From positions 2,728,001-2,792,000 of the forward strand of contig NZ_CP104272.1 in assembly GCF_025244865.1 (NCBI RefSeq): a stretch of DNA of 64,000 nucleotides. Reading direction: 5' to 3'. A program made the translations under genes and the position numbers. Each line of letters starts with the position of its first letter. The stretch's first letter is position 1. The notes below the pieces were generated by a model. That model saw only the letters and a list, made by a program, of their open reading frames with translations, ran no database searches and was not told the origin of the DNA. Below, one piece after another: positions 18,508-40,182 of the stretch. This DNA comes from Arthrobacter sp. zg-Y1110. GTDB lineage: Bacteria > Actinomycetota > Actinomycetes > Actinomycetales > Micrococcaceae.

Positions 18508-21500
18508 ATGTATCTTTCGGTCCTCGGAACGCACTCCGGCATCTCCGGTTCGGTGCAGGTTCCCAACTCCAAATACCACGCCCACCGGGCGCTGATCCTG
18601 GCTTCCCTTGCTCCGGGCACGAGCCGCATCTCCGGGCTGACCGATGCCCGCCACGTGCAGTACACGGTGGCCGCGCTCCGCCAGCTCGGTACCGGAATAG
18701 AGGTGCAGGATGACACCTTTATTGTCCACGGCGGGCCGTACCGTCCACGGCGTGCCGTTGTCTCCGCCGGCAGCTCCGGAACCACGTTGTACTTCATGGC
18801 CGGACTCGCCTCGCTGGGGACACGCGACGTCGTCGTCACCGGACAGAAATACTTCCAGCGCCGTCCCATCGGCGCCTTGCTGGCCGCCCTCCGCGAGATG
18901 GGCGTCGACATCTCCTCGAGCGACGACTGCCCTCCCCTGCAGGTTGCCCACGGGCGGCCGCGCGGCGGTGAAGTCCATATCTCCGGAACCCTCTCGCAGT
19001 GGATTTCCGGACTGCTGCTGCTGGCACCGTTTGCCCGCTCCGAAACCACCGTGGTGGTGGAGGGCCTGCAGAATGAAACCAGCTATGTGGAACTGACCCT
19101 CGCCATGATGGCGCGGTTCGGATTGCAGGTGGAGGCCTCCGAGGACCTCAGGCGCTTCCGGATCCCGGCGGACCAGCAGGCAGTCCCCGCGGACCTGCGG
19201 CTCCCCCCGGATATCGGATCGGCGGCCTTCGGATTCGCGGCGGCGGCCCTGCATCCGGCAGATATTTCCCTTACCGGGCTCAGTGCCACCACCTCAACCG
19301 GATCCGACCATCCCGAAGCTGACTTCCTGGACCTGGCCGCGCAGATGGGTGTGCCCATGGACTACGACCAGGCAACCGACGCGGTGAGGGTCCGCCATCA
19401 GGGCCTGGACCTGCAACCCGTGGACGTCGACTGCCGCCGCGTCCCGGACATGCTTCCGGTGCTGTCCGTGATGGCGTGCCTCGCCAGGGGGCGGAGCGTT
19501 TTCCGCAACATCGACCACGTGCGGATGAAGGAGTCCGATCGGGTGGCCGCCATGCTGCAGCTGAACTCCATGGGCGCGGACCTCACCGTGGAGGGTTCTA
19601 CCTTGGTGGTCCGCGGAGTCGGCAGCTTGGACGGGGCCGATCTTTCCTCTTTCAATGACCACCGGGTCCTGATGTCCCTGGCCGTGGCGGCCTCCGCGGC
19701 AGAAGGACGCAGCACCCTCACCTATCCCAACGCCTACCGCATTTCCTACCCCGAATATCTGACGGCCATGACCGCTTTCGGGCTGCGCATGAAGGTCGAG
19801 GACGGCGTGATCCGGCGTCCCCGCCCCAGCCGGCCGGCCCGGACCGCACGCGGAAGCCGCTCCCGAAGCATTTCCGGACCGGCCGCAGTGGAGGCGGCAG
19901 CGTCCGTCACGGGTCCGGACTGGGTACGGCGCTGGGCGACGGAACGCCCCAACGAAACAGCGGTGGTCGACGGCGGCCCGCGGGTATCGGGGCACCTCAC
20001 CTGGTCCGAACTCGACACGCAGGCCGACCGCGTCGCCGCAGCACTGCTGGAGCTGGGGGTGCGGCCGGGCGACCGGGTGGCTTTCCAGCTCCCCAACCGA
20101 AGCGAGTTCGTTGTCCTCACCGTGGCTGTCCTCCGCCTCGGCGCGGTCGCCGCACCCGTGATGCCGATCTTCCGGGAACGGGAGGTGGCGCTGGCACTGC
20201 ACCGGGCCCGTGCCCGCGTCTTCGTTGCCGTCGAGGAGTTCCGCGGACGCCGGCCGGCGGAGGAACTGGCCGGGCTGCTGCAGCGCACGGACCGAGCCGA
20301 TGCGGTGCCCGCCCCCAAGGTGGCGGATGTTTTCGTGCTGCGGAATGCCGAGCCGCGGCGTCCCCTCCCCTCCGTGGCCGGCGGCCCGCGGTTCCATGAC
20401 TGGGACGCGCTGCTGGGCCCCGTTAGCCCTGCGGCTGTGCTCCGTCACGGTGCTGTGCCAACCGCCGGGGATGCTGCACAGTTGCTTTTCACATCCGGCA
20501 CCTCCGGGGAGCCCAAGGGTGTGGTGCACCGTCATGGAACGCTTAGCCGCGCTGCGGCCATGGAAGCGGCGCATCTGGGCCTCACCAGTGATGACGCCGT
20601 CTTCATCCCGTCACCCCTGGCCCACCAGACCGGCTTCCTGTACGGAATGTGGCTCTCGTTCGTCCTCGGCTGCCCGCAGATCCTGCAGCCGGTCTGGGAC
20701 GCGGAACGGGCCGTGAAACTCATGCGCGGATGGCGCGCCACCTTCGTCCAGGCAGCCACCCCGTTCCTCACCGACCTGGTTGCCGCCGTAGACGCGGGTA
20801 CCGCCGCTCCGCCCAGCCTGCGTATCTTCGTTGCGACAGGCGCCGCCGTCCCCCGGCACCTCGCCGAGCGCGCCACACGCGTCCTGGGCGCGGGTATCTG
20901 CGGTGCGTTTGGAACCACTGAAACCTGCCTGGCCACCCTGGCATCGCCCGGGGACGAACCGGTAAAAGTGTGGGGCACCGACGGGCGGGCCCTGGAGGGT
21001 GTGCGGACCCGGATAGTCGACGACGACGGCCTCCTCCTGCCGCCCGGCGTGGAAGGTAACTTCGAACTTCTCAGTCCCACCGTCTTTGACGGGTACCTTG
21101 ACCGTCCGGACCTGACCAAGGAAGTCTTTACCGAAGACGGCTGGTACCGCACGGGAGACACCGCCATCCTCGATGATGCCGGGTACCTGCGCATCACCGG
21201 ACGGGTTCGCGACATCATCAACCGTGGAGGGGAGAAAATCCCGGTGGCCGAGATCGAGCAGCTGCTCTACCGGCATCCTGCCGTACGGGACGTAGCAGTG
21301 GCCGCCATGCCCGATGACCGGCTGGGCGAGCGGGCCTGCGCCTTTGTCGTTCCCGTGACGGGGATGCGCCCGCAGCTGGCGGATCTCACCGCGTTCCTCG
21401 ACCGGCACCGCGTCGCCAGGCATTACTGGCCCGAACGCCTCGAACTGGTCGACGCCCTCCCCCGCAATGCGGTGGGCAAGGTGCAGAAGTTCCTGCTGCG

Positions 21501-21573
21501 GGACAGGGCCCGCAGCTTTCCCGCCGGCGGCGGACCGCCGGAGCCCGGCACACCGGATCGGAGCAGCCCGTGA
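18508..21573 (+). CDS. EPSP synthase-like / acyl-CoA ligase fusion protein (1021 aa)
   Basis: Residues 1-435 align by eye with AroA (EPSP synthase) over its whole length. Retained positions, E. coli numbering in brackets: K22 (22), R27 (27), D235 (242), D314 (313), K341-E342 (340-341), R345 (344), H385-R386 (385-386). Changed: S23 to Tyr23, N94 to Ser89, R124 to Tyr115, S197 to Glu190, K411 to Ile412, and one Ser of SSQ is missing. PEP and 3-phosphate contacts are thus partly lost. A basic Arg/Ser/Pro linker (436-465) leads to a complete ANL-type ligase domain (about 470-1000): FTSGTSGEPKG at 661-671, GAFGTTETC at 799-807, YRTGD at 890-894, RITGRVRDIINRGGEK from 895, and the A10 lysine K991 in NAVGKVQK. 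The stop overlaps the next gene. Inference: the ligase makes a shikimate-derived acyl-CoA and the EPSPS-like domain does an elimination rather than enolpyruvyl transfer. An ordinary EPSPS role is unlikely. Confidence 0.9.
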   Translation: MYLSVLGTHSGISGSVQVPNSKYHAHRALILASLAPGTSRISGLTDARHVQYTVAALRQLGTGIEVQDDTFIVHGGPYRPRRAVVSAGSSGTTLYFMAGLASLGTRDVVVTGQKYFQRRPIGALLAALREMGVDISSSDDCPPLQVAHGRPRGGEVHISGTLSQWISGLLLLAPFARSETTVVVEGLQNETSYVELTLAMMARFGLQVEASEDLRRFRIPADQQAVPADLRLPPDIGSAAFGFAAAALHPADISLTGLSATTSTGSDHPEADFLDLAAQMGVPMDYDQATDAVRVRHQGLDLQPVDVDCRRVPDMLPVLSVMACLARGRSVFRNIDHVRMKESDRVAAMLQLNSMGADLTVEGSTLVVRGVGSLDGADLSSFNDHRVLMSLAVAASAAEGRSTLTYPNAYRISYPEYLTAMTAFGLRMKVEDGVIRRPRPSRPARTARGSRSRSISGPAAVEAAASVTGPDWVRRWATERPNETAVVDGGPRVSGHLTWSELDTQADRVAAALLELGVRPGDRVAFQLPNRSEFVVLTVAVLRLGAVAAPVMPIFREREVALALHRARARVFVAVEEFRGRRPAEELAGLLQRTDRADAVPAPKVADVFVLRNAEPRRPLPSVAGGPRFHDWDALLGPVSPAAVLRHGAVPTAGDAAQLLFTSGTSGEPKGVVHRHGTLSRAAAMEAAHLGLTSDDAVFIPSPLAHQTGFLYGMWLSFVLGCPQILQPVWDAERAVKLMRGWRATFVQAATPFLTDLVAAVDAGTAAPPSLRIFVATGAAVPRHLAERATRVLGAGICGAFGTTETCLATLASPGDEPVKVWGTDGRALEGVRTRIVDDDGLLLPPGVEGNFELLSPTVFDGYLDRPDLTKEVFTEDGWYRTGDTAILDDAGYLRITGRVRDIINRGGEKIPVAEIEQLLYRHPAVRDVAVAAMPDDRLGERACAFVVPVTGMRPQLADLTAFLDRHRVARHYWPERLELVDALPRNAVGKVQKFLLRDRARSFPAGGGPPEPGTPDRSSP

Positions 21574-22838
21574 GCACTGCAGCCATCGCAGCCGACGGAC
21601 GGGGCAGCAGTATCCCGGACCCCGAATACCGAGACCTGCTCACGTCCGTTACCGAGTGGGTCGAGGGCGCCGGCGAGGCATGGGCAGACCGCATCGAAAC
21701 CAGTGGTACCGCACCCGATGCCCTGTGGAAGGAACTCCGCGAGGCCGGCTTCCTCTCCCTGGCGGCACCTGTGGAACTGGGCGGCCGGGGGCTGAGCTTT
21801 GTCCAGTGGATGGGGCTGATGGAGGTCTTCTCCCGTTCACACGCTTCGGTCCGCATGATCGTGCACGTGGTCAACGGCACCTGGCGGGCCATGAATCCGC
21901 ATGCCGACGGGGCGCAGCGAAGGAAATTCGTCCTTCCCTCCGTGGCAGGAGAGCTGCTTGTCGCTTTCACGCTGACGGAACCGGGCAACGGCACGGGAGC
22001 GGATATCACCTCGAGTGTCCGGCGGGTCGGCGACACCTACTACCTGACCGGCCGCAAGCATCTGATCACTTTCGGTGTGCGCTGCGACTACTGGCTGCTT
22101 TTTGCCCGGCTGGAGGGCAGTTCCGGCAGCGGCGGAACGGTGGCGCTGCTGGTGGACCGGCATGCGCCCGGCGTCGAAGTGGAAGACACCTCGCAGACCA
22201 TGGGGGTCCGCGGCACCGACCATGCCTCCCTCGCTTTCAGGGATACTCCCGTCCCCGTTGCCAACCGCCTCGGAGCGGAGGGAGACGGACTCGCCGTTGC
22301 CCTCGGCGGCTTCCTCACCCCCAGCCGGATCTCCGTGGCGATGAGCTGCGTCGGGCTGGCCCAACGCGCCCAGCAGCTCGCAGTCGCCCATGCCCTGGAG
22401 CGCACCACCTTCGGGAAGCCGCTCGCCGCACGGCAGGCCATCGCCTTTGCGCTGGCGGAAAACGCCGCCGATATCGAGGCTGCCCGCGCTTTGACCCTGC
22501 ACGCAGCTTCGGCCTGGCAGGACGGCGCTCCCGACGCCGGGGCCCTGTCCTCCATGGCCAAGCTGACCGCCGTCGATATGCTCACCCGCGTAACCGACAA
22601 GGCCCTTCAGGTCCACGGCGGCATCGGCTACTGGAAAACCGCGCCCATCGAGCGGGTGTACCGCGACGCGCGGGCGCAGCGCTTCGAAGAGGGAACGAAT
22701 GAGATCCAGAAAACCGTGATTGCCCGCGGTATCTTCCGCCGGGACCAGACACCGAGGTCCGACGCCGCGCTGCCCATTCCCGATCCGTCTCCCGATCCGT
22801 CTCCCGATCCGTCTGCGGCACCCGCCGCCCGCCCCTGA
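21570..22838 (+). CDS. acyl-CoA dehydrogenase family protein
   Basis: This flavoenzyme family introduces or removes alpha,beta double bonds in acyl-CoA thioesters, with FAD. The 422-residue protein has the N-terminal helical domain, FTLTEPGNGTGADITS for the flavin-binding beta domain, RTTFGKPLAARQAIAFALAE, QVHGGIGYWKTAPIERVYRD, and the catalytic-type Glu in FEEGTNEIQ (about E374). The GTG start overlaps the fusion-gene stop as GTGA, so it is translationally coupled. The last 25 residues are a PDPS-repeat tail not typical of the family. In the CHC-CoA pathway of ansatrienin-type clusters a homologous enzyme acts on cyclic acyl-CoA intermediates; that role here is inference. Confidence 0.9.
   Translation: MSTAAIAADGRGSSIPDPEYRDLLTSVTEWVEGAGEAWADRIETSGTAPDALWKELREAGFLSLAAPVELGGRGLSFVQWMGLMEVFSRSHASVRMIVHVVNGTWRAMNPHADGAQRRKFVLPSVAGELLVAFTLTEPGNGTGADITSSVRRVGDTYYLTGRKHLITFGVRCDYWLLFARLEGSSGSGGTVALLVDRHAPGVEVEDTSQTMGVRGTDHASLAFRDTPVPVANRLGAEGDGLAVALGGFLTPSRISVAMSCVGLAQRAQQLAVAHALERTTFGKPLAARQAIAFALAENAADIEAARALTLHAASAWQDGAPDAGALSSMAKLTAVDMLTRVTDKALQVHGGIGYWKTAPIERVYRDARAQRFEEGTNEIQKTVIARGIFRRDQTPRSDAALPIPDPSPDPSPDPSAAPAARP
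22779..22814. repeat. three perfect 12-bp tandem repeats at the 3' end of the dehydrogenase gene
   Basis: CCCGATCCGTCT is repeated three times in a row, encoding PDPSPDPSPDPS in the C-terminal tail of the acyl-CoA dehydrogenase, just before the next gene. Frame is preserved if units are gained or lost. Confidence 0.9.
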
Positions 22839-22845
22839 CGCCGGC

Positions 22846-24870
22846 ATGCTGGACCGGGTCTTCTCCCCCGTTTCCCTTGGGACGCTGCGTCTGGACCACC
22901 GGATCATCATGGGTTCAATGCACCTGAACCGGGAGGATCACCCCCGCGCCCTGGCCGCGTTCTATGCGGAACGTGCGGCCGCCGGAGCCGGGCTGATCGT
23001 CACGGGCGGAGCGGCAGTGAACCGCGCCGGCGCCGGCGGGCCCAACTACCTGCTGATCAATGAGCCGGAAGCCGCCGCTCGGGTTTCCCCGATGCTCAAC
23101 GCGGTGCACGATGCGGGCGGCAGACTTGCCCTTCAGCTGTTCCACGCGGGACGCTACGCCCGGGAGAGCACATACGGGCTGCGTCCGGCCGCGCCGTCGG
23201 AGGTGTATTCGGACTTTTCACGGACGCTGCCCCGCGCACTCACGCCGGCGCAGATCGCAGACACACTTGCGGACTTCGCCGCGGGTGCCGCTGCCGCCCG
23301 CGCCCTGGGCTTCGACGCCGTGGAAATCATGGGCTCCGAGGGTTACCTGATCAACCAGTTCGCCTCGCCCCTGACCAACCTGCGACAGGACCGCTGGGGC
23401 GGGAACCCGCAGCGCAGGCAGGCTTTTCCACTGGCGGTGCTGCAGGCGGTCCGGGACGCCGTAGGGCCCGACTACCCGGTCATCTACCGGACATCGGGCG
23501 CCGACTTCGTCGCCGGATCGAGCTCCCGGGAGGAATCGGCAACCCTGGCGGTGGCACTGGCCCGGGAGGGGGCCGATGCCGTCAACATCGGCATCGGCTG
23601 GCACGAGTCCAAGGTGCCGTCCGTGCAGGGTATGGTTCCGCACGGCCGCTGGATGGAGATTGCAGGGCAGATCCGCGCGGACCTGGCAGCTGCGGGAGTG
23701 CCCGTGCCGGTCATCGCCGGCAACCGGATCAACTCGCTGGAGCTTGCAGAGCGGGCCCTGGCCGCCGGACACGCGGACCTGGTTTCGATGGCCCGTCCCT
23801 TCCTCGCCGACCCGGCGATCGTGGCCAAGACCCGGCGCGGAGAGTCGGACCTCGTCAACACCTGCATAGCCTGCAACGAGGCCTGCATCGACCGTTCGCT
23901 GGGCGCCGAACCTGTCTCCTGCCTGGTCAACCCGCGGGCCGGCCGTGAAACAGAATTTCCGCTCCCGCTGCGGCCACCCCGGCGGCCCGTGAGCGCCTCC
24001 GCCCGGGTTGCCGTGGTGGGCGCCGGCCCGGCGGGGATGCAGGCAGCGGCAACGCTGGCGCAGGCCGGACTCCCCGTGGACCTTTATGAACAGGACAGCT
24101 CCATCGGCGGGCAGTTCCGGCTGGCCGGCAAAGTGCCGGGCAAGGCAGACTTCCTGCAGACAATCCGCTACTTCACCCATGAACTGGCCCGGCTGGGCGT
24201 CCGCGTCCTGACCGGCACCGCCCCCGAAGCCGCGCAACTGGCCGGTTATGCACACCTGGTGCTGGCCACCGGTGTCCGGCCCCGGACCGTTCATCTGCCC
24301 GGCGCCGGCCTGCTCCCTGTACTGGACTACCGGCAGGCCTTCGCGGACCCGGCACCGCTGGGCCGCCGGGTAGTCATCGTCGGTGCCGGCGGCATTGCAG
24401 TGGACCTTGCACACCTGCTGGCGGATGCCGGCGTCGCGGGCGGTCCCCGGGACGTAACGATAATGCGCCGGGGAGCCCGAATCGGCCAGGGCATCGGCCT
24501 GTCCACGCGGTGGGCCGTGCTGCAGGAAATCCGAGCTGCCGGCGTCCGGGCCCTGGCGGGGACCACGCCGCTGGAAGTCACTCCCCTCGGCCTCCGGGTC
24601 CGGAACCCGGACGGCACGACGGCGCTCCTGCCGGCTGACGCCGTCGTCCTGGCTGCCGGACAGGTACCGTTCAACCCGCTCCGCTTACAGCTCGACGCCC
24701 GGGGCTTGCCCGGTACGGTGATCGGCGGCGCGCTGGACGCCTCGGACCTGAACGCGGTCCGTGCCTTCGAACAGGGGCTGGCGGCCGGCACCGCCGTGGC
24801 ACGCCTACTCGACCCGCATGAACCGAAGGACGGGCCACGGCTTAAAAGCAGCAGGGCCCCGCTGCCATAA
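22846..24870 (+). CDS. FadH-type 2,4-dienoyl-CoA reductase (FMN, FAD, 4Fe-4S)
   Basis: The family reduces conjugated dienoyl-CoA esters with NADPH. The 674-residue length matches E. coli FadH. The N-terminal Old Yellow Enzyme barrel carries LFHAGRYA, Tyr167 in GSEGYLINQF and His253 in GIGWHE, at almost the same positions as the FadH catalytic Tyr166 and His252. The iron-sulfur cysteines are C340, C343, C347 and C359 (CIACNEAC, then SCLVNPRAG). The flavin domain starts VVGAGPAGM (390-398) and the NAD(P) motif VVIVGAGGIA is at 509-518. The ATG at 22846 was preferred to an upstream in-frame ATG because it gives the family N-terminus (MLDRVFSPV); it is 7 bases after the dehydrogenase stop. The stop codon lies in the loop of a terminator. 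The gene could serve ordinary fatty-acid oxidation, but its neighbours suggest a ring-diene substrate. Confidence 0.92.
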   Translation: MLDRVFSPVSLGTLRLDHRIIMGSMHLNREDHPRALAAFYAERAAAGAGLIVTGGAAVNRAGAGGPNYLLINEPEAAARVSPMLNAVHDAGGRLALQLFHAGRYARESTYGLRPAAPSEVYSDFSRTLPRALTPAQIADTLADFAAGAAAARALGFDAVEIMGSEGYLINQFASPLTNLRQDRWGGNPQRRQAFPLAVLQAVRDAVGPDYPVIYRTSGADFVAGSSSREESATLAVALAREGADAVNIGIGWHESKVPSVQGMVPHGRWMEIAGQIRADLAAAGVPVPVIAGNRINSLELAERALAAGHADLVSMARPFLADPAIVAKTRRGESDLVNTCIACNEACIDRSLGAEPVSCLVNPRAGRETEFPLPLRPPRRPVSASARVAVVGAGPAGMQAAATLAQAGLPVDLYEQDSSIGGQFRLAGKVPGKADFLQTIRYFTHELARLGVRVLTGTAPEAAQLAGYAHLVLATGVRPRTVHLPGAGLLPVLDYRQAFADPAPLGRRVVIVGAGGIAVDLAHLLADAGVAGGPRDVTIMRRGARIGQGIGLSTRWAVLQEIRAAGVRALAGTTPLEVTPLGLRVRNPDGTTALLPADAVVLAAGQVPFNPLRLQLDARGLPGTVIGGALDASDLNAVRAFEQGLAAGTAVARLLDPHEPKDGPRLKSSRAPLP

Positions 24871-29742: not shown

Positions 29743-30525
29743 CTAGCTGCGGGCACTCAGGGCCGCGGTAATCGTGGCCGAAGCCTGCTGCAGGTGCGGC
29801 AGCACGCGTGCGGCTGCCTCTTCCAGAGTAAGCCCCATGGTGGCCTGCATGGACGTGTTCAGGGCGGCGACCACGTTCCCCCGCGGGTCCAGGACGGGAA
29901 CGGCCACGGAGCGCAGCCCGAGTTCCAGTTCCTGGTCCACGACGGCCCAGCCCTGTTCCCGTGCCCGCGCCACGAGGGTGCGCAGGCGGTCCGGGTCCGT
30001 GACCGTGCGCTCCGTCAGGGGACTCAGGCTGGCTTTGGACAGGTAATCGTCGAACCGGTCCTCGGGGAGCCCCGCCAGCAGGACCCTGCCCATGGAGGTG
30101 GCGTAGGCCGGGAACCGGGTCCCAACGCTGATCCCGACTGTCATCAGCCGCCGGGTATGGATCCGGGCGATGTAGACGATCTCGTCGCCGTCGAGCACCG
30201 ACGCCGACGTCGATTCCGAGATTTCCCTGGACAGGTCCTCCAGTACCGGCTGCGCAAGCTGGGGAAGGGACTGGCCGGACAGGTAGGAGTAACCCAGCTG
30301 CAGGACCAGGGCGGTCAGTTCGAAAGTCCGCCCGTCGGTGCGCACGTAGCCGAGTTCCACGAGGGTAAGCAGGAAGCGGCGGGCGGTGGCCCGGGTCAGT
30401 CCGGTCCGGCGGGAAACCTCGCTCAGGGTCATCTGCACGTTGTCGGCGTCGAAGGCCCGGATCACCGTGAGGCCGCGGGCCAGCGACTGTACGAACTGGT
30501 CGCTGGCCGATGCCGTCTCGCTCAC
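29743..30525 (-). CDS. pcaR: IclR-family regulator of the pca operon (PcaR/PcaU type)
   Basis: IclR-type PcaR/PcaU proteins bind beta-ketoadipate or protocatechuate and control pca genes. The 260-residue protein has a winged HTH (about 12-70, including MTLSEVSRRTGLTRATARRF) and a C-terminal effector domain with SASVLDGDEIVYIARI and ATSMGRVLLAGL. Start GTG at 30525. It is the last gene after pcaJ (19-base gap) on the same strand, so it is probably co-transcribed and autoregulated. Sequence and context fit PcaR; the specific inducer is inferred. Confidence 0.88.
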   Translation of the reverse strand: MSETASASDQFVQSLARGLTVIRAFDADNVQMTLSEVSRRTGLTRATARRFLLTLVELGYVRTDGRTFELTALVLQLGYSYLSGQSLPQLAQPVLEDLSREISESTSASVLDGDEIVYIARIHTRRLMTVGISVGTRFPAYATSMGRVLLAGLPEDRFDDYLSKASLSPLTERTVTDPDRLRTLVARAREQGWAVVDQELELGLRSVAVPVLDPRGNVVAALNTSMQATMGLTLEEAAARVLPHLQQASATITAALSARS

Positions 30526-30544
30526 GTGTCCCCTATGTTGTCGG

Positions 30545-31210
30545 TTACTGCTGGCTGTTGGCCGCGGCGCGGATCAGCGGGATGTCCATCTTTGCCGCCA
30601 GTTCCTCGAACGTGGTTCCGAAGGTGTCGCGGACGTGGACGCCGTCTTCCTTCAGCAGGAAGACCGCTTCATTAGTGTAGACGCGGGTAACGCATCCGAC
30701 GCCGGTGAGCGGGTAGCTGCATTCCTTCACCAGCTTACTGAGGCCGTCCTTGGTGAACAGCGACATCATGACGTAGACGTCCTTGGCGCCGGTGGCCAGG
30801 TCCATGGCGCCGCCCACTGCGGGAATGGCGTCGGGAGCGCCGGTATGCCAGTTGGCCAGGTCCCCGGAGGCGGAGACCTGGAAGGCACCCAGGACACAGA
30901 CGTCCAGGTGCCCGCCGCGCATGATCGCGAAGGAATCGGCATGGTGGAAGTAGGCGGCGCCCGGCAGTTCGGTCACCGGAATCTTCCCGGCATTGATCAG
31001 GTCCGGGTCCACCTCGTCCCCGGAGGCTTCGGGGCCCATGCCCAGCATCCCGTTTTCGGTATGCAGGGTGATGTGCTGTTCCGGCTGCAGGTAGTTGGAG
31101 ACCAGGGTGGGCTGGCCGATGCCAAGGTTCACGAAGGACCCCGGGGCAATATCGGCCGCCACCAGCGCAGCGAGGTCGTTCTTGCCCAGTTTTTCGGTCT
31201 GGTTGCTCAT
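30545..31210 (-). CDS. pcaJ: 3-oxoadipate CoA-transferase subunit B
   Basis: Together with PcaI it moves CoA from succinyl-CoA to 3-oxoadipate. The 221-residue product has the subunit-B signature NLGIGQPTLVSNYL and the catalytic Glu52 in LHTENGMLGMG. Its ATG overlaps the pcaI stop as ATGA, giving equimolar coupled translation of the two subunits. Confidence 0.95.
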   Translation of the reverse strand: MSNQTEKLGKNDLAALVAADIAPGSFVNLGIGQPTLVSNYLQPEQHITLHTENGMLGMGPEASGDEVDPDLINAGKIPVTELPGAAYFHHADSFAIMRGGHLDVCVLGAFQVSASGDLANWHTGAPDAIPAVGGAMDLATGAKDVYVMMSLFTKDGLSKLVKECSYPLTGVGCVTRVYTNEAVFLLKEDGVHVRDTFGTTFEELAAKMDIPLIRAAANSQQ

Positions 31211-31890
31211 GCTGCAGCCGGCGCTTTCTCCCGGTCCACGCGGACCAGGGTGTTGACGTAGATTCCCGGGGTGACCACGACTTCGGGGTCCATTTCTCCT
31301 ATGTCCACGATCTCGCGGACCTGCACGATTGCGGTCTTCGCGGCGGCGGCCATGATCGGTCCGAAGTTCCGGGCGGTCTTCCGGTAGACCAGGTTCCCTG
31401 CCTTATCGGCCCGCAGTGCCTTCACCAGTGCGAAGTCGGCGTGCAGCGGAGTTTCGAAGACGTAGCCGCGGCCGTCGATCATCCGGGTTTCCTTGCCTTC
31501 GGCCAGCGGGGTGCCGTAGGCGGTGGGAGTAAAGAACCCGCCGATGCCTGCACCGGCGGCGCGAATGCGTTCCGCGAGGTTGCCCTGGGGTACCAGTTCC
31601 AGTTCAATCTCCCCGGCGCGGTACTTCGCGTCGAAGATCTGCGAGTCGGACTGGCGCGGGAAGGAGCAGATGATCTTCTTCACCCGGCCGGCACCGATCA
31701 GGGCGGCCAGGCCCTGTTCTCCGTTGCCGGCGTTGTTGTTGACCACGGTCAGGTCCCTGGCACCCTGGCGCAGCAGCGCCTCGATGAGCTCCACGGGCTG
31801 TCCGGCCTGGCCGAACCCGCCGATCATGACGGTGGCGCCGTCGTGGATGGGCGCAACGGCCTCATCAACGTCCTGCACAATGTTGAGCAC
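31207..31890 (-). CDS. pcaI: 3-oxoadipate CoA-transferase subunit A
   Basis: Subunit A of the succinyl-CoA:3-oxoadipate CoA-transferase. The 227-residue product carries DGATVMIGGFGQAGQPVELI near the N-terminus and GAGIGGFFTPTAYGT in the middle, both typical of CoA-transferase subunit A. The GTG start at 31890 has AAGGA seven bases upstream. Other CoA-transferases (acetoacetate type) are close relatives, but the pca context decides the substrate. Confidence 0.95.
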   Translation of the reverse strand: MLNIVQDVDEAVAPIHDGATVMIGGFGQAGQPVELIEALLRQGARDLTVVNNNAGNGEQGLAALIGAGRVKKIICSFPRQSDSQIFDAKYRAGEIELELVPQGNLAERIRAAGAGIGGFFTPTAYGTPLAEGKETRMIDGRGYVFETPLHADFALVKALRADKAGNLVYRKTARNFGPIMAAAAKTAIVQVREIVDIGEMDPEVVVTPGIYVNTLVRVDREKAPAAA

Positions 31891-31922
31891 GGTTTTTCCT
31901 TACGTCTTCGGGAACTGGATTC

Positions 31923-33122
31923 TCAGTTGGCGTTTTCGAGCACGACGGCGAGGCCCTGGCCCACGCCGATGCAGATTGCGGCCACGCCCCAGCGCTCCCC
32001 CGACTCCTGCAGCCGGCGGGCCAGGGTGCCGAGGATGCGGGTGCCGGAAGCGCCGAGCGGGTGTCCGATGGCGACAGCGCCGCCCCAGGCGTTGACGATG
32101 GCCGGGTCCACATCCCAGGCGTCCAGGCAGGCCAGGGACTGGGCTGCGAAGGCCTCGTTGAGTTCAATGGCGCCGACGTCGCTCCAGCTGATGCCGGCAC
32201 GCTTCAGCGCCGTGTTGGCCGCTTCCACCGGAGCGTAACCGAAGTACTGCGGCTCGTTGGCGGCAGCGCCGCGGCCGGCGATCCGGGCCAGCGGGTCCAG
32301 GCCCAGGATGCCGGCGGCGTTTTCGCTGCCCAGCCAGGCCGCGGAGGCGCCGTCGTTCAGGGGGGAAGCGTTGCCGGCGGTGACGGTGCCGCCGGAGACG
32401 TCCTCCGACGCCGGCCGGAAAACGGTGCGCAGCGTGGCGAGCTTCTCGACCGTGGAGCCGGCGCGGATGCTCTCGTCCCGGTCCAGGTCCACGCCGTCGA
32501 CGGCGACGGTCAGGTTCGCGTATTTGCCCTCGTCCCACGCCTTTGCGGCGAGGGCGTGCGAGGCTGCGGCGAACTCATCCTGGCGTTCCCGGGTAATGCC
32601 GTACTTCTCGCGCAGCTGCTCGGTGGCCTCCCCCAGGGAGACAGTCCATTCCTTCGGCATGGCCGGGTTGACCAGCCGCCAGCCCAGCGTGGTGGAGGCC
32701 AGGGTCTGGTCTCCGGCGGGATAGGGCTTCTCGTTCTTGGGCAGCACCCAGGGGGCACGGCTCATGGACTCGACGCCGCCGATCAGCATCAGGTCCGCTT
32801 CACCGGTGTTGATCTGCCGCGAGGCGATCAGTGCTGCGTCGAGGGACGAGCCGCAGAGGCGGTTGACCGTGGTGCCCGGGATCGAGGTGGGCAGGCCGGC
32901 CAGCAGCGTGGCCATCCGGGCAACATTGCGGTTTTCCTCGCCGGCACCGTTGGCGTTGCCGAAGACCACTTCGTCGATCCGCTCGGGGTCAAGGCCGGGG
33001 GCCCGGGACACGGAGGCCTTCAGGACCTGGGCGGCCAGGTCGTCCGGGCGGACGCCGGCGAGGGCTCCGCCGAATTTGCCGAAGGGGGTGCGGACTGCGT
33101 CGTAGATGTAGGCCTGGTTCAC
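31923..33122 (-). CDS. pcaF: beta-ketoadipyl-CoA thiolase
   Basis: Cleaves 3-oxoadipyl-CoA with CoA to succinyl-CoA and acetyl-CoA, the last pca step. The GTG at 33122, with AAGGAG five bases upstream, gives 399 residues starting MNQAYIYDAVRTPFGKFGG. Catalytic residues are visible: Cys90 in NRLCGSSL, His354 in GHPLGASG and Cys384 in CIGVGQG. The upstream in-frame extension is Pro/Ser-rich and is not part of the family. Confidence 0.95.
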   Translation of the reverse strand: MNQAYIYDAVRTPFGKFGGALAGVRPDDLAAQVLKASVSRAPGLDPERIDEVVFGNANGAGEENRNVARMATLLAGLPTSIPGTTVNRLCGSSLDAALIASRQINTGEADLMLIGGVESMSRAPWVLPKNEKPYPAGDQTLASTTLGWRLVNPAMPKEWTVSLGEATEQLREKYGITRERQDEFAAASHALAAKAWDEGKYANLTVAVDGVDLDRDESIRAGSTVEKLATLRTVFRPASEDVSGGTVTAGNASPLNDGASAAWLGSENAAGILGLDPLARIAGRGAAANEPQYFGYAPVEAANTALKRAGISWSDVGAIELNEAFAAQSLACLDAWDVDPAIVNAWGGAVAIGHPLGASGTRILGTLARRLQESGERWGVAAICIGVGQGLAVVLENAN

Positions 33123-33195
33123 GGGTGCTCCTTGAACTGGAAAGCGAAAACTGGAAGAGGGGGAAGGGCCGGGATGGGGAAGGGCTGCCGCCGGC

Positions 33196-33600
33196 TCAGG
33201 CCGCGGCGTCAATCTCGCGGAAGACGCCCTGGGCCACCTTGAAGGCGGAGTTGGCGGAGGGGACGCCGCAGTAGATGGCGGACTGCAGCACGATCTCCTT
33301 GATCTCGTCGCGGTCCAGGCCGTTGCGCAGCGCTGCCCGGACGTGCATGGCGAACTCCTCCAGGTGGCCGTGCGCTATCAGTGCCGTCAGGGTGATGGCG
33401 CTGCGCATGGTGCGCGGCAGGCCCGGACGGGTCCAGATGGTGCCCCAGGCGTACTGGGTGATCAGGTCCTGGAAGTCGGTGGTGAACTCGTCCTTGCCCG
33501 CGTTGGCGCGGTCCACATGCTCGGCGCCGAGGACTTCGCGGCGTACCGCCATGCCCTCGTTGTACACGTCCTGCCGGCTCTTGTTGGCATCTGCGATCAC
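33196..33600 (-). CDS. pcaC: 4-carboxymuconolactone decarboxylase
   Basis: Converts 4-carboxymuconolactone to 3-oxoadipate enol-lactone. The GTG at 33600, with AAGGGA upstream, gives 134 residues, the usual length. The AhpD-like fold is recognisable by GTIWTRPGLPRTMRSAITLT, LIAHGHLEEFAMHVRAALRN and QSAIYCGVPSANSAFK. In several actinobacteria PcaC is fused to PcaD as PcaL; here the two are separate genes four bases apart. Confidence 0.93.
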   Translation of the reverse strand: MIADANKSRQDVYNEGMAVRREVLGAEHVDRANAGKDEFTTDFQDLITQYAWGTIWTRPGLPRTMRSAITLTALIAHGHLEEFAMHVRAALRNGLDRDEIKEIVLQSAIYCGVPSANSAFKVAQGVFREIDAAA

Positions 33601-33604
33601 TGCG

Positions 33605-34417
33605 TCATTTCCCTTCAAGGTACTGGGCGCCGAAGAAGTCCTTCAGCAGTTCTGCGGTTACGGCCGGCTGCTCCACCGGGACCAGGTGCGCGGCGTCGTC
33701 GACGACGGCGGCGGTTCCGTTGGCCACCCGGTCGGCAATGAGCTGCGCGAACGACGGCGGCGTGACGACGTCGTCGGCACCGGCTACCGCGAGCACGGGG
33801 ACCGTGATGTCCGGCAGCCGTCCCCGGACATCGAAGGTCGCCAGTGCCCGGCAGCAGAGGGCGTAGGAGAAGCGGTCCGCGTCCTGCAGCGAGTGGAGCA
33901 GGGCGGCAGCGGCAGCGGGCTCCCGGTCCATAAAGCCCGGGGCGAACCAGCGCTGCCCCGAGCCGACCACCTGGGTGGGCGTGCCCTGGAGGCGCACCGT
34001 TTCCGCGCGTTCCTCCCAGGCTCCGGTTTCGCCGATCTTGGCACCGGAGCAGAGGACGGCCACGCCGTCGAACAGCGACCCGTGGTCCAGGCCGAGCTGG
34101 AGTCCGACGGCGCCGCCCAGCGATACCCCGGCGTAAAAGACCGGGACATCTGCGGGAATGTCTCCGGCGTTGCGGGCTGCGGTGACCATCGCCGCGACGG
34201 CGGCGGCCAGGTCCGCGATGCTGAAGGATTCCCCTGCAGCGGGGCTGGCACCGTGGCCGGGCAGGTCCCAGGCGATGACCGTGAAGGTGTCCAGGGCGGC
34301 CGCTGCCCGGCTCCACAATGGCATGGACGCAGTGCCCAGCGACGGGCCGGCGATCAGGACGGGTGCGGCGGGGCCGGCGTTGGAAAGGCGGGAGGCCTTG
34401 ATGGCGGGGATGCTCAT
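33605..34417 (-). CDS. pcaD: 3-oxoadipate enol-lactone hydrolase
   Basis: An alpha/beta hydrolase that opens the enol-lactone to 3-oxoadipate. The 270-residue product shows the nucleophile elbow GVSLGG (Ser99), an acid in AGADDVVTP (about D215/216) and His244 in DAAHLVPV. The oxyanion region has LGTASMPLW. Its ATG overlaps the pcaB stop as ATGA. Confidence 0.92.
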   Translation of the reverse strand: MSIPAIKASRLSNAGPAAPVLIAGPSLGTASMPLWSRAAAALDTFTVIAWDLPGHGASPAAGESFSIADLAAAVAAMVTAARNAGDIPADVPVFYAGVSLGGAVGLQLGLDHGSLFDGVAVLCSGAKIGETGAWEERAETVRLQGTPTQVVGSGQRWFAPGFMDREPAAAAALLHSLQDADRFSYALCCRALATFDVRGRLPDITVPVLAVAGADDVVTPPSFAQLIADRVANGTAAVVDDAAHLVPVEQPAVTAELLKDFFGAQYLEGK

Positions 34418-35871
34418 GCTGAGGGCTTTCCGGGGTAGGCCGCGGTGATCCGCTCAATGAGGGCGGTGGCCTCCCCTAGGTATTCGGCGGGGTCGAGGAT
34501 GCTCTTGAGTTCCGTATCGGAAAGGACTTCCGGGGGGACCGCTGCGCGCAGCAGCTCTTCGAAGGGCTCGCCGGAGGACAGCGAGCGGGCCACGGTGTCG
34601 GCGATGATTTCCTTGCCGCGTCCGGGCACGCCGTCGTCGAGCAGCGGGGCGGCCACGGCCATGATTTTCTCACTGACCACAAGCGGCCCGGCGGATTCCA
34701 GGTTGCGGGCCAGCGCGTCCGTGGAGACCTGCAGGCCCTCGGCCAGTTCGGCCAGCTTGGCAGCGGCTCCCCCGGCGAGGCGCAGCAGGGAGCGCAGGGC
34801 CTGCCATTCCACGTGCCAGGAGCCGCTGGGCCGCTCATCGTCCGCGGCTGCGGCAGCGGCGTTCAGCTGCATGCCGTAGCCGGGTGCGGCCAGGGCCGCA
34901 CTGCGGATCAGGACGGACAGGACGGGGTTCTGCTTCTGCGGCATGGCGGAGGATCCTCCGCGGCCGGCGGCGCGGGGTTCGGAGACCTCGCCGATTTCCG
35001 GCCGGCTGAGCAGCAGGACGTCGTTGGCAACCTTTCCGGCCGCGGCGGTGAAGTCCTGCAGTGCAGCGCCGAGGGCGGTCACCGGCAGCCGGTTGGTCTG
35101 CCAGGGTGCCACGGGGTCGGCCAGGCCGAGGCCGTGTGCCAGCCGTGCGGTGAGGTCGAAGGCGGTCAACGGTGCGCCGGAGCCGGCCTGGGCGCCGTCG
35201 CCCGGCTGTGCCGCGGAACCGGTCTGTGCGGCGGAACCGGCAGCGAGGGTGAGTGCCGCCAGTGTTCCGGAGGCGCCTCCCCACTGCAGCTGGAGGTTGC
35301 CGGCGGCGGTACGCAGTCCCTGGGCGGCGCTGCCCACCCCGTGCAGCCACTGGGCGGCGCGCAGGCCGAAGGTGGAGGGCAGCGAGTGCTGGGTCAGGGT
35401 CCGGGCCACGCACAGGGTCGCTGCGTGGCGCCGGGCGGTGGCACCCAGGGCAGCGGCGGCCCGGTCGGCATCCGCGATGATGGTGTCCAGGGCGCGGCGG
35501 GCCAGCAGCATCAGGGCGGTGTCCATGATGTCCTGGCTGGTGGCGCCGCGGTGGATGGCGGCCGCGGCTTTGGGCGAAGATTCCCGTGCCTGGGCCCGGA
35601 GGTCGGCCAGCAGCGGAATCACGGGATTGCCGCCGCCCTGCGCCCGCTCGGCCAGGGACGCGGCGTCGTACCGGGAAGCGTCGCTGACGGCGGCCACCGC
35701 GGCGGGTGCTTCCGGATCGGCCAGGCCGGCGGAGGCCAGCACGCGCACCCATTCGAGCTCCACGTCCAGGAGGGCCTGGAGCAGCTGTCGGTCCCCGGTC
35801 AGTTCCGCGACCCGGGTACCCGCCCAGGCCGGGGAGAGCAGCCCGTAGTCCGCGCTGTCCGCTGCACCCAC
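34414..35871 (-). CDS. pcaB: 3-carboxy-cis,cis-muconate cycloisomerase
   Basis: A fumarase/argininosuccinase-superfamily enzyme that lactonises 3-carboxymuconate. The 485-residue protein has the superfamily signature GGSSAMPQKQNPV and the segments GATSQDIMDTA and LTQHSLPSTFG. Between about 211 and 236 there is a Gly/Ala/Gln-rich insert (repeats of GSAAQ type) that looks like a lineage-specific loop. Start GTG at 35871, three bases after pcaG. Confidence 0.93.
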   Translation of the reverse strand: MGAADSADYGLLSPAWAGTRVAELTGDRQLLQALLDVELEWVRVLASAGLADPEAPAAVAAVSDASRYDAASLAERAQGGGNPVIPLLADLRAQARESSPKAAAAIHRGATSQDIMDTALMLLARRALDTIIADADRAAAALGATARRHAATLCVARTLTQHSLPSTFGLRAAQWLHGVGSAAQGLRTAAGNLQLQWGGASGTLAALTLAAGSAAQTGSAAQPGDGAQAGSGAPLTAFDLTARLAHGLGLADPVAPWQTNRLPVTALGAALQDFTAAAGKVANDVLLLSRPEIGEVSEPRAAGRGGSSAMPQKQNPVLSVLIRSAALAAPGYGMQLNAAAAAADDERPSGSWHVEWQALRSLLRLAGGAAAKLAELAEGLQVSTDALARNLESAGPLVVSEKIMAVAAPLLDDGVPGRGKEIIADTVARSLSSGEPFEELLRAAVPPEVLSDTELKSILDPAEYLGEATALIERITAAYPGKPSA

Positions 35872-35874
35872 CGG

Positions 35875-36441
35875 TTACGCCCCGGGGTAGGTGAGGAAGA
35901 CGGTTTCGCCTTCGCCCTGCAGGCAGATGTTCCAGCGGAGTCCGCCGTCTGCTTCGCGGGTGGCGATCAGGGTGCGCCGGCGTTCCTCGGGCAGCGAGGA
36001 CAGCAGGGCGTCGCGGGCCAGGGCCTCTTCGTCGTCCGGCAGGTACATCCGGGTGTGCAGCTTGTTGAGCAGGCCGCGGGCGAAGATGACGACGGAAATG
36101 AAGGGGGCCGATCCCTCTTCCGTAGGGCCCGGGTTGACCGTGGTGAAGGTGTAGTTGCCGGCATTGTCGACGGCGGTGCGGCCCCAGCCGGTGAAGGTGT
36201 AGCCGTCACGGACCAGGGATCCGGTCCGCTGGGGGATATTGCCGTCGGCGTCGGCCTGCCAGATTTCCAGCAGGGCATCCGGAATGGTGTCTCCGGCGCC
36301 GTCGGTCACGGTGCCCTGGAGGCGGACGCTGCCGGGCATGCCCGGGGACAGCAGCTGGTTGTCCTTCTCGAAGGGGAGGGCGTAGCCGTAGAACGGGCCG
36401 ATGGTTTGCCCGGGCGTGGCGGTTAGCTTCTGCTCGTTCAT
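35875..36441 (-). CDS. pcaG: protocatechuate 3,4-dioxygenase alpha subunit
   Basis: Alpha subunit of the intradiol ring-cleavage enzyme that opens protocatechuate to 3-carboxy-cis,cis-muconate. The 188-residue product starts MNEQKLTATPGQTIGPFYGY and includes DALLEIWQADADGN and the GRTAVDNAGNYTFTT strand. It lacks the iron ligands, as expected for the alpha chain. The ATG overlaps the pcaH stop as TAATG. Confidence 0.95.
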   Translation of the reverse strand: MNEQKLTATPGQTIGPFYGYALPFEKDNQLLSPGMPGSVRLQGTVTDGAGDTIPDALLEIWQADADGNIPQRTGSLVRDGYTFTGWGRTAVDNAGNYTFTTVNPGPTEEGSAPFISVVIFARGLLNKLHTRMYLPDDEEALARDALLSSLPEERRRTLIATREADGGLRWNICLQGEGETVFLTYPGA

Positions 36442-37265
36442 TACTCTGCGTCCTCGTCTTCCATCCAGGTGCGGTTGCTGCCGGTGAGCACGATGTCCCA
36501 GTTGTAGCCGGTGGCCCACTCATGCGAGGTGATGTTGTGGTCGTACGTGGCCACGAGGCGGTCGCGCGCCTTGGAGTCCGTAATCGACTGGTAGATCGGA
36601 TCCAGCGCGAAAAGCGGATCCCCGGGGAAGTACATCTGGGTGATCATGCGCTGGGTGAAGTCGGTGCCGAAGAGTGAGAAGTGGATGTGCGCCGGCCGCC
36701 AGGCGTTGTAGTGGTTCTTCCACGGGTACGGACCGGGCTTGATGGTGGTGAACTCGTAGGAACCGTCGTCGGTGGTGATGCAGCGGCCGACGCCGGTGAA
36801 GTTCGGGTCCAGCGGGGCCGGGTGCTGGTCGCGCTTGTGGATGTAGCGGCCGGCGGAGTTGGCCTGCCAGATTTCCACCAGCTGGTTGCGGACGGGGTGC
36901 CCGTCGCCGTCGAGGATGCGTCCGCGGACGATGATCCGCTCCCCCATCGGTTCGCCGTTGTGCTGGATGGTCAGATCGCTCTCGAGCGCGTGGACGTCCT
37001 GGTGGCCGAATGCCGGGGACCACAGCTCGATGGTTTCGGGGTCCACGTGGTGCGGATCCTTGGTGGGGTGGCGCAGGAGCGAACTGCGGTAGGGAGTGAA
37101 ATCGATGCGGGGCTGGGTTTCCTCTGCGGCGCCGTCGTCCACCCCCTTGGAGTACTCGGCGTGGACCGCGGCGATTTCAGCGGAGATCTGGTCCTGTGAG
37201 GCCTCGGCTGCGTCCAGCTTCTCGATGACATGGCTGTTCGAGAAAAGGTTCTCTTCCATTTCCAT
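36441..37265 (-). CDS. pcaH: protocatechuate 3,4-dioxygenase beta subunit
   Basis: The catalytic, non-haem Fe(III) subunit. From the ATG at 37265 (AAAGGA upstream) it has 274 residues. The four ligands of the family are present: Tyr141 in AGRYIHKRD, Tyr186 in KNHYNAWRP, and His193 and His195 in PAHIHFSLFG. The N-terminal 50 residues are an extension rich in charged helix-forming residues. It is the first gene of the pca operon and follows a putative PcaR site. Confidence 0.95.
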   Translation of the reverse strand: MEMEENLFSNSHVIEKLDAAEASQDQISAEIAAVHAEYSKGVDDGAAEETQPRIDFTPYRSSLLRHPTKDPHHVDPETIELWSPAFGHQDVHALESDLTIQHNGEPMGERIIVRGRILDGDGHPVRNQLVEIWQANSAGRYIHKRDQHPAPLDPNFTGVGRCITTDDGSYEFTTIKPGPYPWKNHYNAWRPAHIHFSLFGTDFTQRMITQMYFPGDPLFALDPIYQSITDSKARDRLVATYDHNITSHEWATGYNWDIVLTGSNRTWMEDEDAE

Positions 37266-37345
37266 GGGTTTTCCTTTCAATGAAGCGCACCCTTGCGCTC
37301 CGGCTTTCCAAGCATCCACGTGGTCGAGACCACGTTACACCGCCT

Positions 37346-37379
37346 GTTCGTTGGATGTACAGATGTTCGTTATGCGAAC
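37346..37379. promoter_or_regulatory. putative PcaR operator upstream of pcaH
   Basis: Two related 15-base blocks, GTTCGTTGGATGTAC (37346-37360) and GTTCGTTATGCGAAC (37365-37379), start 19 bases apart and end next to the pobA stop, about 80-115 bases before pcaH. The second is close to the PcaR box GTTCGATAATCGCAC known from Pseudomonas putida, and is itself an imperfect palindrome (GTTCG/CGAAC). Confidence 0.5.
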
Positions 37380-37380
37380 G

Positions 37381-38577
37381 CTAGTCGTGCGGCCAGCCCG
37401 TGTAGGCCTCGGCCAGGTAGGCGCTGCCGTGCCGGGAGGAGACGACGCCGCTGAGCTCTCCCAGCGCACGCTTGCGTTCGAAGGGGCTGGCGTCCGCCCG
37501 GGTGTGCAGCATCGACGTCATCCAATAGGAGAAGTTCTGCGCGCGCCAGACCCGCTCGAGTGCCTTGTCACTGTACCCGTCCAGCAGGTCAGGGGACTTG
37601 GTGGCGTAGAACGAGTCAATGGCCTCGAACAGTACCTTCACGTCGGCCAGGGCAAGGTTGAGGCCCTTGGCGCCGGTGGGCGGAACCGTGTGTCCGGCGT
37701 CGCCCGCCAGGAACAGGTTGCCGTACCGCAGGGGTTCACACACATAGCTGCGGAACTTCAGGACGGTCTTTTCGAAGATGGGGCCCCGCGTCAGCTCGAA
37801 GCCGTCCGGGCCGTCCACCCGCGCCTGGAGTTCGTCCCAGATGCGGTCCTCGCTCCACGCATCCGCGTCCTCGTTCGGATCACACTGGAAGTACATCCGC
37901 TGGACGGAGTCGTTGCGCTGGCTGATCAGGGCAAAGCCGCGGTCGGAATTGGCATAGATCAGTTCCGGGGCACTGGGTGCGGCCTTGGTGAGGATGCCGA
38001 ACCAGGCGAAGGGGTATTCGATGAAGTTATCCGTGCGCGCTTCCTTGGGGATGGAGCGCTTGCAGATTCCGCCGGAGCCGTCGGAGCCCACCAGGATTTC
38101 ACAATGGATTTCAAAGTCCCGGCCGTCGCTGTCTGTGAACAGGATTTTGGGGGTTTCCGTCGCCAGGTCCGCGACGGATGTTTCGCTGACTCCGTAGCGG
38201 ACATCGCCGTGGTCCCGTTCCCGGGCGGCGGCCAGGTCCGTGAAGACCTCGTTCTGCGGGTACAGCCACACGGACTCCCCCACCAGGTCTTCAAAATCGA
38301 TCCGGTGGCTCTCACCGCCGAAGCGCAGGTCGATGCCCTCGTGGCGGTACCCCTCCGTAAGCACCCGGTTGCTTACCCCGGTGTCGGTCAGCATGCGGAC
38401 ACTTCCATGCTCCAGGATGCCGGCCCGGTGGGTGGTGCGGATGGTCTCGCGGTCCCGCTTCTCCACCACGATATTGTCGATGCCGGACTTCGACAGCAGG
38501 TGCGAAAGCATCAGTCCGGCAGGGCCGCCGCCCACAATGCCGACCTGCGTCTTGAGGATAGTGCGCTCTGCACCCAT
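37381..38577 (-). CDS. pobA: 4-hydroxybenzoate 3-monooxygenase
   Basis: FAD-dependent hydroxylase that turns 4-hydroxybenzoate into protocatechuate using NAD(P)H and O2. The 398-residue product has the dinucleotide motif GGGPAGLMLSHLLSKSG, the FAD-binding FLAGDAGHTVPPTGAKGLN stretch and the RAGILEHGSVRMLTDTGV region typical of PobA. Start ATG with AAGGGAG six bases upstream. It sits upstream of pcaH on the same strand, supplying its substrate, with the putative PcaR site between. Confidence 0.95.
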   Translation of the reverse strand: MGAERTILKTQVGIVGGGPAGLMLSHLLSKSGIDNIVVEKRDRETIRTTHRAGILEHGSVRMLTDTGVSNRVLTEGYRHEGIDLRFGGESHRIDFEDLVGESVWLYPQNEVFTDLAAARERDHGDVRYGVSETSVADLATETPKILFTDSDGRDFEIHCEILVGSDGSGGICKRSIPKEARTDNFIEYPFAWFGILTKAAPSAPELIYANSDRGFALISQRNDSVQRMYFQCDPNEDADAWSEDRIWDELQARVDGPDGFELTRGPIFEKTVLKFRSYVCEPLRYGNLFLAGDAGHTVPPTGAKGLNLALADVKVLFEAIDSFYATKSPDLLDGYSDKALERVWRAQNFSYWMTSMLHTRADASPFERKRALGELSGVVSSRHGSAYLAEAYTGWPHD

Positions 38578-38606
38578 CTATTACTCCCTTGAAAACTTTG
38601 TAGCGG

Positions 38607-38623
38607 ACACTACCTCCCAGTGT
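38607..38623. promoter_or_regulatory. inverted repeat upstream of pobA (operator candidate)
   Basis: ACACT-N7-AGTGT lies 30 bases before the pobA start. Its position overlaps where the pobA promoter or leader should be. Either IclR-family regulator nearby could bind it; nothing in the sequence decides which. Confidence 0.3.
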
Positions 38624-38724
38624 GACTGCCGGCACACGGGGAGCAGCAAAGTGATTCTCATTGAATGGGAAATCGGTGGGTATCCGGCGCCGCGGATAGT
38701 CAGGGCGCGGTTCACGGGTCCGGT

Positions 38725-40020: not shown

Positions 40021-40182
40021 TCTGTCCCCCGTTGTGCCGCTCCGTTTGGTGCCGGCACGGAAGTGCCGGAGAAGGTCCCGGCAGGATGTGCTGCCGGCCC
40101 GGCACTACTATTACCCGGAAGTCCGCCGCCGGCCTGCAGCGCCACGCGGCACGGCCGGTTCCGGCCATGCCCGGCCGGTGGG

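Follow-up and report, generated by a model that had tools for sequence, protein, structure and literature searches.

What does an operon encoding an EPSPS-like (5-enolpyruvylshikimate-3-phosphate synthase-like) enzyme fused to an acyl-CoA ligase do among the ribosomal genes of Arthrobacter sp. zg-Y1110? The operon was found in a 64-kb stretch of DNA (here, the window; G000:C1:2728001-2792000) of the 3.9-Mb genome and consists of three tightly coupled genes, JK, L and M, which follow one another on the forward strand at 18508-24870. The stop codon of JK and the start codon of L overlap in the four bases GTGA at 21570, and a 7-base spacer (22839-22845) separates L from M, both read from the sequence. 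The domains, the overlap and the gap thus bear out the tightly coupled operon of the preliminary description of the window, which had likened it to a pathway from shikimate to a cyclic acyl-CoA. We find that the three genes belong to a conserved cassette, JK-L-ChcA-M, and the likeness is supported. Judged from their sequences, all of the cassette enzymes appear to be encoded in the genome, split over two operons, and would form a conserved pathway of the cyclohexanecarboxyl-CoA (CHC-CoA) type with CHC-CoA as the predicted product. We put the probability at about 0.75 that the operon is the de novo half of a CHC-CoA pathway of the Streptomyces type, with ChcA at a second locus, and that CHC-CoA probably primes type II fatty-acid synthesis.

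Homologues of JK were sought in the genome contigs of 526 relatives and the best 80 loci were kept. Over these 80 the fusion is conserved at 46–97% identity, and the operon is therefore not a chance assembly. JK is followed by L, in most loci then by a short-chain dehydrogenase/reductase (SDR) of ~270 residues, and then by M. From its place in the cassette this SDR is probably ChcA, which we take to be an SDR enoyl-CoA reductase. The order JK-L-ChcA-M is the usual one in Streptomyces, Micromonospora, Lentzea, Sinomonas and Eremiobacterota, and is found in part in Bacillota. An SDR at least 54% identical to the Sinomonas copy occurs in 58 of the 80 loci. Genes were called with our own codon-usage script, and a gene missing near a contig end is no evidence of its absence; in the 77 loci with a called JK the neighbours are L (71), ChcA (57), M (59), a FabF-like beta-ketoacyl synthase (KAS; 27), DAHP (3-deoxy-D-arabino-heptulosonate 7-phosphate) synthase (9) and a second ligase (6). 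The closest named relative of the fusion is from Arthrobacter (L025, 96%). A FastTree phylogeny of JK, rooted at the midpoint and leaving out characterised CHC proteins, groups the window protein, with support, among sequences from Arthrobacter, Sinomonas, Cellulomonas, Paenarthrobacter, Specibacter and Microbacteriaceae; this clade takes in 24 of the 75 rows and lies close to the cassettes of Streptomyces. A tblastn search of plasmids gave no match at 1e-100. Six genomes of the Arthrobacter group without M in the cassette have M-like matches elsewhere (648–671 bits); the one that was compared is 40% identical to the M of the window, and we do not claim these matches as true M.

The surroundings of the cassette differ between groups. 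DAHP synthase is the first enzyme of the shikimate pathway, and a gene of this family adjoins the cassette in 9 of the 13 Eremiobacterota loci (L059, L064, L065, L066, L068, L071, L073, L074 and L079), with the assignment tested by Pfam in two of them (PF00793, 247 and 252 bits). A KAS lies upstream of JK in eight of these nine, and the other four loci have less than 1 kb of upstream sequence. The Eremiobacterota cassette together with DAHP synthase apparently makes up a self-contained shikimate-to-cyclohexyl module. In Micromonospora and Streptosporangiaceae (L061, L081, L083, L090, L092 and L097) the cassette stands in clusters with PaaA-like and weakly radical-SAM-like genes (both by Pfam, in L061) and with genes that by eye are P450-, FabI- and mostly also ACP (acyl carrier protein)-like. 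In two Bacillota metagenome-assembled genomes (MAGs; L098 and L099) genes that by eye are MaoC-like hydratases lie beside JK-L and are candidates for dehydration steps still without an assigned enzyme.

The preliminary description had noted the lack of a ChcA-like gene in the window, and a search with the cassette SDR likewise finds none in these 64 kb. Of the two explanations then offered, a shortened route is rejected since ChcA is present in the genome, and the other, an enzyme encoded elsewhere, holds: the genome search that had been proposed finds chcA at C1:220107-220907 (473 bits), 2.5 Mb from JK-L-M. The same search over 59 genomes gives 22 matches at 461–492 bits, the next listed match scoring 164. 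The best profile match of the SDR is the FabL enoyl-ACP reductase (248 bits, below the cut-off of 328), and a simple pattern finds its Y-x6-K motif in 62 of 63 sequences, the exception (L140) having GYGS for SYGS and the same Y-x6-K. At its second locus chcA begins an apparent operon with a second ligase and a KAS II (Table 1); the ligase comes after chcA in all 22 such loci, our genome included (L105–L126). The chcA-linked KAS shares 59–72% identity with its cassette-linked counterparts in Streptomyces, Streptosporangium, Acidothermus and Microbacterium and 39% with the housekeeping FabF of the same genome. Its Cys-His-His positions are invariant in a nine-row alignment (A3), and simple patterns for the three match 21, 16 and 21 of 32 family members; the catalytic residues thus appear intact for the nine rows only, and this is not settled for the family as a whole. 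Contiguity of ChcA with the other CHC genes, absent from our genome, is not strictly defining because ChcA also stands apart in two Cellulomonas that share this arrangement. Two Sinomonas loci have all of JK-L-ChcA-M at the ribosomal site of the window operon, so the simplest history would be that chcA was lost from, or moved out of, this site in Arthrobacter.

The two loci occur together. In the 59 genomes (our own and 58 relatives) JK is found in 20 and ChcA, at 460 bits or more, in 22, including all 20 with JK; a 21st match to JK (G033) covers the ligase part only. A sample of 396 genomes from the order, in which scoring was limited to 2 and 6 first-look candidates per genome, has JK in five and ChcA in the same five, three of them from one genus. 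In the sample from the phylum ChcA is found in 5 of 396 genomes and JK, at 1e-250, in 1; in three of the four genomes with ChcA only, JK, L and ChcA are in fact neighbours, at 49–58% identity, and the mismatch in these three arises because their JK falls below the threshold. The 22 genomes that contain loci without an adjacent ChcA have it elsewhere in 15 cases, including all 12 Arthrobacter and Cellulomonas with the split arrangement, a group that overlaps with the 59 genomes. In three of the draft genomes (L069, L070 and L098) ChcA is on another contig, where the cassette is possibly broken over contigs rather than divided between separate loci. ChcA was not found in the other seven (L058, L060, L071, L088, L093, L094 and L101), six of which are MAGs and several of which are cut at a contig end.

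L and M are assigned to the acyl-CoA dehydrogenase and FadH-type reductase families of the cassette, and the active-site motifs of L, M and the ligase domain of JK are kept. The x-E-G-T/S motif of the acyl-CoA dehydrogenases is present in all 73 L family members, the Fe-S cysteines of FadH in all 61 M family members and SEGYL in 59 of these, while the JK ligase has its P-loop in 73 of 78 sequences and the A10 lysine motif in 76 of 78. In the pathway that we propose the ligase domain of JK would join CoA to shikimate, or to a dehydrated form of it, as a thioester, its EPSPS-like domain would drive shikimate elimination, and L, M and the FabL-like enoyl reductase ChcA would carry out alternating reductions. 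CHC-CoA would then serve as a primer of type II fatty-acid synthesis, in which the chcA-linked KAS would be dedicated to elongation (or to priming). PF00109 has seven matches in the genome. Two of them are the housekeeping FabF and the chcA-linked KAS; the other five span 37–46 residues, and two of these sit in thiolase-like genes of the window, with the remaining three presumably also in genes of that kind. There are thus only two full-length KAS I/II proteins, and this search reveals no modular polyketide synthase (PKS) in the genome. Next to the housekeeping FabF is a FabH-like gene. The genome has FabH and KAS for type II fatty-acid synthesis, and no PKS that would act as a competing sink. 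A fatty-acid fate for CHC-CoA is the most economical because of this lack of a modular PKS, and is also favoured by the linkage of a KAS to chcA.

Three other explanations have to be weighed. The first takes the EPSPS-like domain for an additional AroA of the ordinary kind, perhaps glyphosate-tolerant, that became fused to a ligase. It is suggested by the domain's score of 313.9 bits against the NCBIfam aroA equivalog, above the cut-off of 287.25; automatic annotation would therefore name JK AroA, and would mislead. JK was aligned over 77 rows (the window protein twice and 75 relatives) together with the AroA of the genome and Klebsiella EPSPS. Residues K22, R27, G96, R124, S170, Q171, D313, K340, E341, R344, H385 and R386 are kept in every lettered row, and all of these except G96, S170 and K340 count towards a second AroA. 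Against it, the domain is 27% identical to the AroA of its own genome as compared with 48–97% to cassette EPSPS domains, and the cassette family has its own fixed residues: position 23 is Y in all 65 rows that have a letter there, and all 77 rows have L ahead of SQ, E197 and I411. JK thus has the changes S23Y, SSQ to LSQ, S197E and K411I and lacks S23, S169, S197 and K411 of AroA, whereas in the genomic AroA S23, SSQ, S197 and the K411-motif lysine can be read by eye. With residue roles as known from E. coli EPSPS, the pattern suggests that binding of phosphoenolpyruvate (PEP) is kept and recognition of shikimate-3-phosphate changed. The preliminary description would have been contradicted had the domain been the only aroA of the genome, which it is not: the four PF00275 proteins are JK, two MurA (C1:2303351 and 2403913, L004 and L001; 528 and 418 bits) and an AroA at C1:2479334, beside rsgA (TIGR01356, 362 bits). 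With this separate AroA and the changed active-site positions we reject JK as the housekeeping AroA, and regard a second ordinary AroA as highly improbable.

An operon that breaks down an alicyclic or aromatic acid and feeds the neighbouring protocatechuate genes is also very unlikely, if somewhat less so. Genes that by eye resemble pca and pob do lie nearby in the window (29743-38577), the best NCBIfam match of the JK ligase is a degradative cyclohexanecarboxylate-CoA ligase (TIGR03208, 454 bits), and cyclohexane-carbonyl-CoA dehydrogenase models are among the matches of L (182 and 138 bits), but these scores are far under the curated cut-offs of 792 for the ligase and 650 and 575 for the dehydrogenases. 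The pca genes, moreover, are on the opposite strand, past tuf-fusA-rpsG-rpsL. When neighbouring genes were clustered into families, two from the pca region (14 and 15) occurred only in the 10 Arthrobacter loci at the ribosomal site and in the window, and among the clustered neighbours no linkage of the cassette to pca or ring-cleavage genes was seen across genera; outside the Arthrobacter ribosomal site its conserved neighbours are KAS, ligase 2, DAHP synthase and others. More credible than either of these, while still improbable, is that the enzymes yield not CHC-CoA for fatty acids but another alicyclic acyl-CoA, such as a hydroxylated or only partly reduced cyclohexene carboxyl-CoA, destined for a small molecule or lipid conjugate. 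The position of ChcA outside the operon, the secondary-metabolite-like surroundings of the cassette in some relatives (L061, L081, L083, L092 and L097) and the absence of cyclohexyl acids from the published fatty-acid profiles of two cassette-bearing Sinomonas species (PMC10394333, PMC6617354) are in its favour. Against it stand a genome with no modular PKS, the presence of ChcA in 20 of the 20 genomes with JK among the 59, and the chcA-linked KAS, which points to chain elongation.

Several observations weigh against a CHC-CoA pathway for fatty acids as well. The genomes of Sinomonas humi and S. susongensis carry JK-L-ChcA-M (L034 and L036), and in their published fatty-acid tables anteiso-C15:0 and C17:0 dominate and no cyclohexyl acid is listed, the S. 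susongensis profile omitting peaks under 1% (PMC10394333, PMC6617354). S. humi has a peak given as C18:1 w7c (16%) or summed feature 8 (8%) that is absent in S. susongensis (PMC10394333, PMC6617354); that the peak hides a wrongly assigned ring fatty acid is no more than a guess. A literature search gave no report of cyclohexyl fatty acids in Arthrobacter among the matches listed. Several cassettes are without an adjacent M or ChcA, and the chcA-linked KAS is only 32% identical to the KAS of an Eremiobacterota locus (L064). Finally, two genomes (G010 and G032) have chcA-ligase2-KAS without JK at 1e-100 and with weak matches to M only (252 and 222 bits), so that this module may have a role of its own. 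At these two loci (L139 and L140) the operon is possibly a salvage module; ligase 2 of G032 (L140) reads in two frames and may be broken.

A more specific version of the CHC-CoA pathway is possible, and we offer it tentatively. In this version the EPSPS-like domain, with its PEP site kept but shikimate-3-phosphate recognition and K411 lost, would be a repurposed enolpyruvyl transferase that acts on unphosphorylated shikimate or its CoA ester and makes a shikimate hydroxyl a leaving group for the first elimination. The pathway of the Micrococcaceae might then consist of two parts, JK-L-M for synthesis and chcA-ligase2-KAS as a separable module for finishing or salvage. PKS-free Arthrobacter would thereby have a pathway dedicated to ring-tipped lipids, fed either by shikimate or by cyclohexene carboxylate that the cell scavenges.

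The operon is orientated opposite to its neighbours and is flanked on one side by the S10 ribosomal operon and a gene for a giant membrane protein and on the other by tuf-fusA-rpsG-rpsL (ribosomal genes named by eye). The membrane protein, alanine-rich and multi-pass, lies between the S10 operon and JK and belongs to a family (18) kept in nine related loci. The pca/pob region beyond the str operon is partly conserved among Arthrobacter loci. We read M from the ATG at 22846, while the list of open reading frames begins it at an upstream TTG at 22720; the ATG is also the choice of a codon-usage gene finder, itself partly trained on the M gene. The TTG start is probably spurious, the frame being open up to it because of repeat-like DNA at 22720-22845, which encodes the Pro/Asp/Ser-rich C-terminus of L. 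A scan for promoters and terminators gave 0 promoters against 0.5 expected and 3 terminators against 3.1 expected, and the PHROGs matches of protein P0001 were only to families without known function.

Table 1. Positions of the operon genes and domains, the chcA operon and neighbouring features (window positions unless a locus is named)
Feature	Position	Strand	Basis or remark
JK, EPSPS-like/acyl-CoA ligase fusion, 1021 aa	18508..21573	+	domain matches; conserved in cassette loci
EPSPS-like domain of JK (PF00275, residues 10-419)	18535..19764	+	PEP-site residues kept, several other active-site positions changed
Acyl-CoA ligase part of JK (AMP-binding, residues 474-864; AMP-binding_C, 915-991)	19927..21480	+	domain matches
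L, acyl-CoA dehydrogenase, 422 aa	21570..22838	+	domain and motif; catalytic Glu motif kept
M, FadH-type 2,4-dienoyl-CoA reductase, 674 aa (Oxidored_FMN, Pyr_redox_2)	22846..24870	+	domains and motifs; from ATG 22846
chcA	L137:10093-10932		first gene of apparent operon
AMP-dependent acyl-CoA ligase 2	L137:10963-12642		second gene of chcA operon
KAS II (beta-ketoacyl synthase)	L137:12643-13875		third gene of chcA operon
Giant alanine-rich multi-pass membrane protein, ~1800-1950 aa	12377-18235	-	family 18
Protocatechuate/4-hydroxybenzoate catabolic genes (pca, pobA, IclR regulators, MFS)	29743-40950	-	by eye

To our knowledge, shikimate-derived cyclohexane acyl-CoA chemistry has been described from Streptomyces antibiotic clusters, thermoacidophiles and a few others such as Curtobacterium pusillum, which is a producer of omega-alicyclic fatty acids. 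The present analysis places CHC-type genes in PKS-free Micrococcaceae and, with DAHP synthase alongside, in Eremiobacterota. According to published work, Sulfobacillus carries omega-alicyclic fatty-acid genes, the precursor being shikimic acid (PMC4378227), two Alicyclobacillus isolates contain about 60% omega-alicyclic acids (PMC10562698), CHC-CoA is the starter of phoslactomycin (PMC9730843), a cyclohexylcarbonyl-CoA cluster was used in engineering a doramectin strain (PMC10295569), and Moore and Floss 1994 is cited (PMC6780079). The two loci offer a concrete test of the lipid prediction, and the EPSPS sequence signature can be used to ask what the EPSPS homologue does in CHC pathways.

Compared with known systems, the EPSPS-like domain of JK shares the fold family and the PEP-site residues of AroA and differs in its altered active-site positions, its fusion to a ligase and the separate AroA in the genome. 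Known gene sets for CHC-CoA are those of ansatrienin (ansJKLM and chcA of S. collinus) and phoslactomycin (plmJK, L and M, with plmJK fused). By gene content rather than by sequence, these have in common with the present genes an EPSPS homologue and a CoA ligase, both supplied here by JK, an acyl-CoA dehydrogenase, a FadH-type reductase and a ChcA-type enoyl reductase, which is encoded in our genome; unlike them, the genome has its chcA far from the other genes, in an operon that also encodes a ligase and a KAS II, and no modular PKS. The omega-alicyclic fatty-acid synthesis of Alicyclobacillus and Sulfobacillus was compared by way of the two Bacillota MAGs, which have JK-L in both loci and ChcA close by in L099, with a JK only 46–48% identical to that of the window. 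Three loci of Kitasatospora and Streptomyces (L067, L076 and L087) presumably belong to asukamycin-like clusters, as JK is preceded there by two genes of KAS III type and one ACP-like gene (tested by Pfam in L087, and by matching translations in L067 and L076), in agreement with the asukamycin cluster. They resemble the genes described here in having JK (57–58% identical), L and ChcA adjacent, with M adjacent in L087 only, and differ from the window in these upstream genes, which are for polyketide priming.

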